In this document: positions 37,821-60,478 of the stretch, one piece after another
How the letters are laid out: each line of letters opens with the position of its first letter
How positions within the stretch are numbered: the stretch's first letter is position 1
Assembly: GCA_002989075.1 (NCBI GenBank)
Contig: PSQN01000015.1
Coordinates: 1,426,001 to 1,490,000, forward strand
Source: Arthonia radiata
Lineage: Eukaryota > Ascomycota > Arthoniomycetes > Arthoniales > Arthoniaceae
DNA length: 64,000 bases
Direction: 5' to 3'
Translations under genes and position numbers: made by a program
Notes under the pieces: generated by a model
What the model saw: only the letters and a program-made list of their open reading frames with translations
Databases searched by the model: none
What the model was told of the DNA's origin: nothing

Positions 37821-38324
37821 TCAGGCGTCACCAAGTTGCCCATGATCTGCGTGAAACTTTCTCAGGCGGTCCACCCCTTCATTAAAGCGTTCTCGATTCT
37901 CGCCCTCCAGGCCGAGAATAAGTCCACGCGGAACGGGGGCGATCGGCGGTTCAGTGACCTGCGTTGAGGATTCACTGAGCTCAGGTGTTATGGAATAGGG
38001 CGTCTCGGTCTGTCGCTGAACGTGCTTGAACGTGCTGTCCTTAGTCGGGGCTTGGGGCGCCGCGGAGGCAGTGGCGCCGTCATCGCTCGTTGCTTGACGC
38101 GGCGGCTGAGCAGTTCCGCTGTAAATATTCTGTATTGATGAATTGCAGCAAGTGATGAAAGTGTTGTGGTTGCAGTTACCACCGTTGAATATCGGGCCTG
38201 TGTGTTGAGCTGTCGAGCACGCGCACGCCGCACGCTCGCGTTTCCGGAACATCTTGCGCAGGAACCTGCGCTTGCGACCGCTGCCTTCGCTTTCAGCGGT
38301 GCCAGTTGTGCTCGGTGGTGTCAT
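37821..38324 (-). CDS. Small protein with polybasic N-terminus and Asn-rich motif
   Basis: An intronless 167-residue protein. It begins with a strongly basic stretch, RKRRFLRKMFRKRER (about residues 17-31), then a Cys/Asn-rich segment, GPIFNGGNCNHNTFITCCNS, that looks like a short amyloid-type motif ([IV]F-[NQ]-G-...-N...F). A Ser/Thr/Pro-rich low-complexity part follows, and a predicted helix ENRERFNEGVDRLRKFHADH ends the protein. No known domain. A gene with a similar NVFQGNDNSMNFN motif occupies the matching place in the second copy of the duplicated block (51,720-52,536, offset 14.2 kb). A role as a short signalling protein in the neighbouring HET-S-like system is an inference. Confidence 0.55.
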   Translation of the reverse strand: MTPPSTTGTAESEGSGRKRRFLRKMFRKRERAACACSTAQHTGPIFNGGNCNHNTFITCCNSSIQNIYSGTAQPPRQATSDDGATASAAPQAPTKDSTFKHVQRQTETPYSITPELSESSTQVTEPPIAPVPRGLILGLEGENRERFNEGVDRLRKFHADHGQLGDA

Positions 38325-40404
38325 CGGATTTGTTCAGGATGCTGCAGGGACGCGTCGAAACACGCGGATGGTTCGCGAAGGTGGACGCGGAAAGGGAGCG
38401 GATCGAGGGTCAATGCTCAGATCAGCAATTCGCGTACAGCGGCTTGAAATGAGACACCGCGTAATCACACGAAGAACTCTTGACAAGGGCAGCAGACAAT
38501 CCGATGGTCGTTTGTGAATGTGAAGGCATTGAGAAGCAGACTTCCCGAGGGTCTTGGCCCAAAAGTTCCGGCTGCGCAGGGGATACCGATACCACCCCCA
38601 GACAGTCTAAAGAATGACGTCCTCGTCAATAATGAGCGTCGTAAAGCATTTCTTCACATCTTGCGCTGCGCATTCAGCATTCAATAACGTCTGCATAACG
38701 CACTTAACAAACCATAATAGAACGGTGATCGGCTAAACATCGCTACTTGCAGTCTTACCAGGCACTTACCGCTAGGCAAACACCCTTCGTACGGCTAGTA
38801 CCTTTCAGGTTTCGGACTTCTCGACTTCAATCATATCATCAGCTTGATGTCCAAACACTCGGGCATGCCTCAAATGCCACATCTTGGGCGTCATGTCCAT
38901 GCAAATGGCGCGTGGAGGGCTTGTTCTGGGACTTGGGTACGGCAGATGTCCTCCCGGGGCGCGAATGTCTTCGACTACGCAATGGCAGTTTGGTTTCCAC
39001 ATCTTGAAATGCTCCATAGCAGAGGAGTCGAGGCTTTATATGCTGGCCCATGGCGGAGGTTCTCCTCGCGCCGGAAAGGTGCAGAGCTAAACTGTTTCTT
39101 CCTTTTCCGCGGCTGCGTCGCAGCCACCTGTCACTGCCGTGCCGCCAGTGTGTGATTGGAAGGAGCTTGCGGCCTCAGTCGCGAATTGGCGAATGAGCCG
39201 AGTGCGATATGCCACCTCAGCCTTTGCAACTTGCTTCTTAGAGGCTTAAGCTTCGATTTCGAGTTTCCACCAGCTAATGGGCTGGGAAGGTCTGAGGTTC
39301 ACTCGGCTAGGCTTAGGATTGCTTGTGTCATCGCAATCTCGTCGATCACCAACTTCCTTTGAGTCAGCTTCTCTCGAAGTGGACAATTACTGGACTAACC
39401 AGCATCCGATGTCGACGTCTGGATCCACGTCCTTGTCATGTTCTCGTCAGGCAATCTCGTCCCGGGCTCTGGGCGAGTACTGTCGAGCTTGCAACATTTC
39501 TGGCAAGCTCGGATAAGATTCGAATGACCCCAGTGGTGGACCGCACTGAACGTATGAGCTGAAGAGTAGAAAGACTGATGGAAGATCAATTGCAACGATC
39601 GCAAGAAGTTGGAGAAGCTCGGGCGAATGCCCGTGTGAAACCCGAGAATGCCAGTCCTTGCATGGTCTCCACAACCATGTGGCTGCAAGCCCAAAGGACC
39701 GCGCGCACAGCGACTACTTAGCCGATTAGGGCTTATCTTAGGCGCTGCTGTCGCTTCACTGCCGATGCCCTCCTTTTTCCTCTACTCCTCCCAACGCACC
39801 AGGAGTATCCATCCTTCACCTGGCCATGACCATCATCAGCAAGAGTCGGAAAGCGCTGATCACTCAATGAGAAACGTAGAGACATTGGCTGGCTGGGTGC
39901 TACTTTCATTTCGAGAGTACGGTAAACTTTTGTACCTTGCGGCACATGTGCACATCACGGACTGACGCATGTCTACGCAGACGAAATCTTTTCAGTGTCC
40001 TTGACTACCACCCAAGACGATCCGTCAACCTGGGTCTGGAACTCAATCCAGGACTAGCGTTTCGATCATGGGTTGTCGATCAAAGTTTTTTGCCGTCGAG
40101 GCAATAATAAGGCCTCATCGGATGCTTGAGGAGAGATGCGTTGCAGCATCCCGATACATTGTTGAAGTCTCATCGAATCAAGCACCGCGTCTGCGTTAAA
40201 AATTCTTCGACCCTGCAAGAACATTGGCTACCAAGTTTAGACATACTTCGGAGGTGTGACAAGGCAAAACCAAGGCAGAATTGTTCATGGAAGTCGCTTT
40301 GCCAAACGCTATCTACTATAAAGTGTTTGTTCGGCATCGATCACTTCTGCGCAGCTCAACGGTGAGTAGACTCTCTCTATTCACTCATTTCATGTTAGTG
40401 CCCG
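38325..40404. other. Gene-poor stretch upstream of the first diverged HeLo gene
   Basis: Two kilobases without a recognisable gene. A likely 5' UTR intron of the next gene runs from a gtgagt near 40,361 (after ctcaacg) to the acceptor atgttag at about 40,398, just before the start codon. Confidence 0.4.
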
Positions 40405-58551: not shown

Positions 58552-59833
58552 GCGGGGCTTCCAGAAGATAAGATCGTCTAAGCCTGCCGACGTCGGGCTC
58601 GGCCTGCACAACATTATTAGGGCACATCAAGGAAGATCCCGTGATGGCTCCCAGTCCAATCACACGTCGCTGTCGCCAACCCTCCGCGCATGACGTCCTG
58701 GCTCCTTGCGCTGGATTTTTTCGTTCAGATCCGTGGTCTTCGCAGCAAGTAGCCTTCAGAACGAGTCTCGTACTAGCTGCTCGAAGACTTTCTCCTCTTG
58801 ACTTGTGTTTGAGGTGCCAGTCCACGTCCGCCACGAATGTTCTCGCTTTTGCAACGGGGGCATCTCGTTCTCGAAGCTTATTTGTCCCCTTGCTAAATCT
58901 TTTGTTTCCACTGCGGTTTTCACTCAGACAACCCCACTTAAAACCATCACGGCCCTTCTGCACTTCTGTCTTGATCATGCAGCTTTCCAGTACTCCACCA
59001 GCTGCTAGTCGAAGACATCTTTACCAGGACGATTACTGATTTCGTCTAACGCCCACCTATCCCTACCTAGCTGACCTCAGGCCACTGTCAATAGCCGCGC
59101 CAACTCCTAAATCGCCAACCGGGTTCATCGCCCACCAACAGACCTCCAGAGTGCCTCTTGGTAGTCGTGTCTCTTTCCGGAGATCAGCACTGCACTTCGA
59201 CGACGGCTTTACGTTGAAAGTCCCCTGCCATCAGTCGTCTGGTTCTTTTCCGTGGTCAATACTCTCGATCCTTGCCTGGGATTACCCGTTACCATTTTTT
59301 CTTGCCTCTCGCTGGAACTCTCCGCGACCAAACCAGCCGATCACCTCCCTGGCGTCCTCCATCGACTCACTGACGCCGTTGTCGTCACCCATAGTCACCG
59401 CCTTCTCTTCGTGTGTCGCAACGGCGGACACTAACAGTCTATTCAAAGCAGCAATCCAGTCGTCGTCCAAATAAAGCTCGTAAATACACGACGCGACCTT
59501 GCGCACTTCAGTCAGGTGAATTATATTCCACGAAGAGGATTCTCGCCGTCTTCTCAATCACACCCGACATTGAAAGCCACCAGTTGCAAGTGGCGCCCCC
59601 AACGATAATGAAAAGACACTAACTGGCGCATATTAGGCTACCTACACCTGCCACACCACTCACATCCGCCCGGCGGTCCTTGGACCCGCTTTTCCTAGCC
59701 TCGAAGGTTGCCGCCCACGTGTGAGACGGTGGAGCTATCCAGACACGACTCCTCCATCCATCCAACATTCGTTGAGTCAGACAATCCGCCACTTGGCTAT
59801 CCGCCAATTGCAAGTCGTTTGTCGTCCGGATAG
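58552..59833. other. Unassigned sequence upstream of the second basic-helix motif gene
   Basis: 1.3 kb. A minus-strand frame at 59282-59557 (ASCIYELYLDDDWIAALNRL ... SESMEDAREVIGWFGRGEFQ) is charged and protein-like, ending near a gtaacg donor. I do not recognise it; it may be an exon fragment. The last 200 bp should be promoter. Confidence 0.35.
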
Positions 59834-60478
59834 ATGGCGAACATTCAAGAGCAGGGGACAGGCGAGCGTATTGAGTCTTCTTCCAAAGAAGATCACACCA
59901 ATGGCTCATCGTCTGGTCCTGGGCACAGATACAGTAACATTGACACTACTGGAAAAGACAATACGTTCGGTGATGACGTTAAACAAGGAGATCAGATTAA
60001 CGTGAATGTACCCATCACCATGGGCAAGACACAATCGGAAGAAGGCAAAAGCAATATTTCACGCACTGAGACGCTCTCTGAGGAAGGCACTACGCAGCGT
60101 CTTTCTCCACCACAGCCAGCCCCGCAGCCAACAAACAATCTGTCGGTGCCAGCTTTCCAGACTGCAGACGCTCCTTCCAGTCGTGGCTCGTCATCGCACA
60201 CCGAAACTCCCGCCGGGTCAGTGGAGCTCGTGGATCCCAAAGGAATCTCGAAGCCGACGACCTTTGCCAATGACGATGCAAATGGACGTGTCACGGGTCT
60301 CCAGCATGAGCTTTCCATGGATGTAACAGGCTCTGACGCGCGGCACATCAACGAACAGCCCGAGTCCCTCCGTGGTTGGCTTCGCCGTCATCTTCGCTGC
60401 TTCGAAAGGAAGACAGCGCGCCGCAGCAGGGATGGCGATGAGGGAGTCCGCCCCATGCATGGTTGCATCTGGTTCTAA
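59834..60478 (+). CDS. Single-HRAM protein with disordered linker and basic C-terminal helix, copy 2
   Basis: 214 residues, intronless. The motif GHRYSNIDTTGKDNTFGDDV (residues 30-49) is nearly the same as the first motif of HET-S copy 2 (GHKYSNIKTLGDDHTFGNDY). It is followed by a beta-like segment QINVNVPITMG. A Ser/Thr/Pro/Glu-rich linker leads to the amphipathic basic segment SLRGWLRRHLRCFERKTARR (about residues 177-196), matching the paralogue at 45,608-46,396. The strong similarity of its motif to that of the HET-S homologue suggests they can cross-template, the relation known between NLR N-terminal motifs and HET-S. The protein has no NLR part. Function is inferred only. Confidence 0.68.
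   Translation: MANIQEQGTGERIESSSKEDHTNGSSSGPGHRYSNIDTTGKDNTFGDDVKQGDQINVNVPITMGKTQSEEGKSNISRTETLSEEGTTQRLSPPQPAPQPTNNLSVPAFQTADAPSSRGSSSHTETPAGSVELVDPKGISKPTTFANDDANGRVTGLQHELSMDVTGSDARHINEQPESLRGWLRRHLRCFERKTARRSRDGDEGVRPMHGCIWF

Follow-up and report, generated by a model that had tools for sequence, protein, structure and literature searches.

The stretch of Arthonia radiata DNA analysed here (the window; 64,000 nucleotides, G000:C12:1426001-1490000) contains a cluster of about 20 kb whose members, about nine genes of which four or five are of the cell-killing type and four are small, carry one common HET-s-like amyloid motif. As originally predicted, the cluster lacks a NOD-like receptor (NLR), with no NACHT or NB-ARC match at E<=0.01. 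By analogy with known systems, it may be a variant of HET-S-type signalling where HeLo effectors would be seeded, without an NLR, by single-motif proteins that lack NACHT, a tentative reading to which we give somewhat less than an even chance. The small proteins may supply the trigger that a receptor gives in those systems.

Seven genes hold 11 copies of the HET-s-related amyloid motif (HRAM) between 41.8 and 60.0 kb of the window, and the genes at 40.4 and 45.6 kb add degenerate yet significant copies, so that the original prediction of eight or nine carriers holds; a candidate that it had bracketed, at 58.2 kb, drops out, its copy not being significant. The genes are named X40, H41, S45, X54, h55, H56 and S59 (Table 1), and Z denotes two further single-motif genes between the duplicated blocks described below. 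The motif is 18 residues long (17 in two genes), and a check against shuffled sequence gave seven matches to the strict pattern in the window and none in 100 shuffled windows. In a leave-one-out profile test 7/11 copies passed, while r2 of H41 and r2 of H56 were not recognised alone. An alignment read by eye places the arch glycine in 11/11 copies, hydrophobic residues at the first, second and last core positions of all 11, and a mostly polar residue at position 16, with a spacing one residue shorter than in the known HRAM pattern (hydrophobic at 5, 8, 10, 16, 18). The double-motif family PF11558 gave no match, its control also matching nowhere, and the single-motif family PF17108 gave only three sub-threshold matches, all elsewhere. 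In any case, PF11558 is not strictly defining, being matched by 38/155 published double-motif proteins (PMC4518210).

Two C-terminal pseudo-repeats are found on HeLo or HeLo-like proteins in H41, H56 and X54, weakly in X40, and in h55 on a truncated HeLo copy; four or five effector-type genes thus stand beside four small ones, much as had been anticipated (four HeLo-type effectors and several small single-motif proteins). PF14479 (HeLo) scores 79.3 bits in H41 and 80.6 bits in H56 (cut-off 23.2), and a profile built from the HeLo regions of H56, H41 and a gene on contig C13 matches the HET-s/HET-S entry 2wvo at E 1.2e-32. X40 matches no Pfam family over cut-off; it aligns with X54 (pairwise blastp E 8.7e-11), and its r1 motif (p=0.005-0.006) forms two opposite-charge pairs with r2. 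The HET-s/HET-S N-terminal domains are the three best PDB matches of the AlphaFold2 model of X54, whose strands in both repeats (pLDDT, the model's confidence score, about 62-67) are only suggestive. The H56 model (pLDDT 50.7) matches 2wvo at E 5.6e-05, with few strands and lower confidence than that of X54. In h55 the N-terminal portion of HeLo is missing; it shares 52% identity with H56 over 123 residues, and the mismatch counts at the successive codon positions, 40/37/76 out of 124, indicate coding constraint. Across the five effector genes, the r1/r2 charge pairs are opposite in 13 cases and like in one, a value reached in 0/20,000 shuffles. Such complementary charges are as in a two-rung beta-solenoid, and the repeats may form a solenoid amyloid or a prion.

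The cluster is built around a duplicated block, since X40(+)-H41(-)-S45(+)-47.5-kb element corresponds in order and orientation to X54(+)-H56(-)-S59(+)-61.4-kb element, and both the X starts and the S starts are offset by 14,226 bp. The truncated copy h55 and the two Z genes are additions to this scheme. Synonymous differences at or near saturation in the five pairs compared indicate that the duplication is old. The element of 140 bp, probably non-coding, follows both S genes at a downstream distance of about 1 kb, its copies being 73% identical over 142 columns (E 7.6e-15); a genome search found it at these two places only, and blastn detects this pair yet misses the neighbouring S and X gene pairs.

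S45 and S59 are themselves paralogues (30% over 89 residues, E 2e-7). The S59 motif reached 25.3 bits with a profile that left it out (shuffled maximum 9.2) and its region is 62% identical to the r1 region of H56 over 21 residues, whereas the S45 motif (p=0.001-0.002), best matched by r1 and r2 of H41, is not found by profiles built without S45. The tails differ, with a cationic WLRRH segment in S and acidic, Cys-rich tails in Z, and no effector or NLR domain was found in either. The proposed pairing of single motifs with particular effectors was recovered, as each S motif resembles that of the HeLo partner in its own block (S45 with H41, S59 with H56; sign-flip p=0.005), mostly through three of the 21 columns compared (8, 14 and 17). 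As judged from the motifs, this likeness is the signature of NLR/HeLo pairs, with a partner here that is not an NLR.

Table 1. Features of the motif cluster and its border (window positions)
Feature	Position	Strand	Basis or remark
X40, divergent HeLo-like, two degenerate C-terminal motifs (about 41104-41157, 41209-41262)	40408..41277	+	paralogue of X54
H41, HeLo + double C-terminal motif (r1 41925-41978, r2 41829-41882)	41811..42635	-	PF14479 E 4.5e-22
S45, small, one divergent motif (45653-45706)	45608..46396	+	low-complexity middle, C-terminal WLRRH...RSRDG segment
Conserved DNA element, copy 1	47469..47609	.	downstream of S45
X54, divergent HeLo-like, double C-terminal motif (r1 55348-55401, r2 55444-55497)	54634..55518	+	AlphaFold2 model, motif profile
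h55, tandem truncated copy of H56 3' part (r1 55856-55909, r2 55760-55813)	55727..56107	-	HeLo end + double motif
H56, HeLo + double C-terminal motif (r1 56272-56325, r2 56176-56229)	56149..56994	-	PF14479 E 1.8e-22
S59, small, one motif (59921-59974)	59834..60478	+	low-complexity middle, C-terminal WLRRH...RSRDG segment
Conserved DNA element, copy 2	61407..61546	.	downstream of S59
HET-domain gene	61873-63288	+	directly borders second block; PF06985 E 2.9e-07, over cut-off; 5' start provisional

Under the reading that we favour, S and Z would be carriers of a single motif (r0) templating the HeLo effectors with no NLR needed, and the signal would lie in how abundant or how clustered S or Z is. 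A fuller version, possible but on the doubtful side, is a natural NLR-free death system with NACHT-less r0 input modules, in which each block would have its own r0/effector code and thus form a separate channel, h55 would act as a propagating seed or a brake, and input would be read by the S and Z tails instead of NLR repeats. The originally suggested NLR-free or multi-input hub is supported in part, with an unlinked NLR or capping as competing accounts. An NLR acting in trans might template the effectors, leaving S and Z as side branches or NLR remnants, and a candidate exists in the same genome at G000:C13:2159341-2164806, where an r0-NACHT-WD40-like receptor gene faces a HeLo double-motif gene; an NLR with a diverged r0 is another possible candidate. 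However, each S motif is nearer to that of the H gene in its block than to those of C13, and searches next to S and Z turned up no NLR domain. In genome-wide searches (33.5 Mb, 16 contigs), none of the 47 NLR-type matches scanned (35 NACHT, 12 NB-ARC) shows the cluster subtype, and within about 1.5-2 kb upstream of them no close r0 was found except at C13, which has another subtype. The nearest NLR, 39 kb away (L050 7957-10000 plus window 1-1266), has a PigL_N/SesA-type N-terminus, NACHT and, by eye, ankyrin-like repeats at window 556-1266; the amyloid motif was looked for and not found there. A receptor acting in trans on the cluster seems unlikely.

Rather improbable too, in our estimation, is that S, Z and h55, the truncated copy, serve as decoys or caps, which would extend nascent HeLo solenoids by a rung that does not kill and so restrain neighbouring killers in an antidote-like manner. 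Capping by S or h55 also agrees with the sequences, as h55 retains r1-r2 under coding constraint without the N-terminal HeLo part, the S59 motif closely resembles r1 of H56, and each block has a killer gene linked to a small one. That the effectors are ordinary HET-S-type proteins, with S, Z and h55 as decaying duplicates or unexpressed, non-functional frames, is very doubtful. If small proteins without a nucleotide-binding or effector domain do trigger naturally, amyloid templating would be a free-standing signalling principle, nearer to animal RHIM adaptors. The duplicated blocks, for their part, offer a natural experiment for studying the seeding code.

HeLo, HET-domain and NACHT genes, together with RIP-type mutation (repeat-induced point mutation) in the flank, characterise the DNA as that of a filamentous fungus. 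Regarding the surroundings, the HET-domain gene has no motif (motif test p=0.26). Two low-complexity frames in the predicted interval, 51723-52530 (-), which may be a single gene with an intron, and 37824-38324 (-), have neither motif nor Pfam match. Right of the window (G000:C12:1490001-1510000) the DNA is AT-rich (24-38% GC) for at least 20 kb, has strong RIP indices and contains no frame that reaches 200 residues, which indicates that the cluster adjoins a mutated region, probably derived from transposons. Within the window, the RIP composite indices stay negative from 40 to 62 kb. The fourth HeLo match of the genome (G000:C1:3837655-3838251) has one stop in the matched stretch, and the motif was looked for in that locus and not found.

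Compared with published systems, in excerpts of PMC4518210, PMC12261475, PMC9815663, PMC7889193, PMC5485727, PMC12881547, PMC3321046, PMC4344463 and PMC12258605, the cluster shares with nwd2/het-S of Podospora anserina (HRAM1; NLR plus HeLo effector) the HeLo effector with two C-terminal repeats, the single-copy partner motif, the charge complementarity of repeats and the concerted evolution of partner motifs. It differs in having small NACHT-less partners, several effectors, a motif that is shorter by one residue and has Tyr as its first core residue, and no PF11558 or PF17108 match over threshold. The C13 locus likewise combines a HeLo double-motif protein with a single motif at the partner's N-terminus, but with a canonical NLR. 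Among HRAM subfamilies (Daskalov et al. 2015, PMC4518210), HRAM3 is nearest; the pseudo-repeat layout and arch glycine are common, 8/11 cluster copies have, at aligned position 3, the His that is described for HRAM3, and the 14-residue linker compares with a published range of 6-18 for 21-residue repeats, whereas the 18-residue spacing and the mostly polar position 16 set the cluster apart. An adjacent NLR accompanies 98/155 HeLo proteins and is absent in 57/155 (PMC4518210), so that its lack alone is not new. NLR-less HeLo-HRAM genes are known; no locus with NACHT-less single-HRAM proteins adjoining HeLo-HRAM effectors was found in the Creative Commons-licensed PubMed Central excerpts searched. 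As to motif number, PMC12261475 gives 6 HET-s motifs, out of 23 motifs, for the Fusarium assembly that it names as the richest in motifs at chromosome level. Two-effector clusters are already known: HELLP/SBP/PNT1 and sesA/sesB/het-eN (PP and sigma motifs) likewise unite several proteins around one amyloid motif, but with an NLR and two effectors (PMC5485727, PMC3321046). In the excerpts listed above the trigger motif is carried by an NLR, except for the [Het-s] prion, an effector allele. [Het-s]/HET-S incompatibility occurs without functional NWD2 (PMC4344463), and there, as proposed here, a non-NLR motif protein triggers a HeLo killer; however, that seed is the effector's own allele with two repeats, h55 being the nearest analogue, while S and Z carry one repeat and no HeLo domain. 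Finally, NWD2(1-30)-GFP, with one r0 and no NACHT, assembles spontaneously, induces [Het-s] and is incompatible with HET-S, and NWD2(1-30)-RFP relocates HET-S to the cell periphery (PMC4344463). Its action without NACHT makes an NLR-free templating step plausible, and it resembles S and Z as a single r0 on a soluble NACHT-less protein, although it is a laboratory fusion and not a natural gene.
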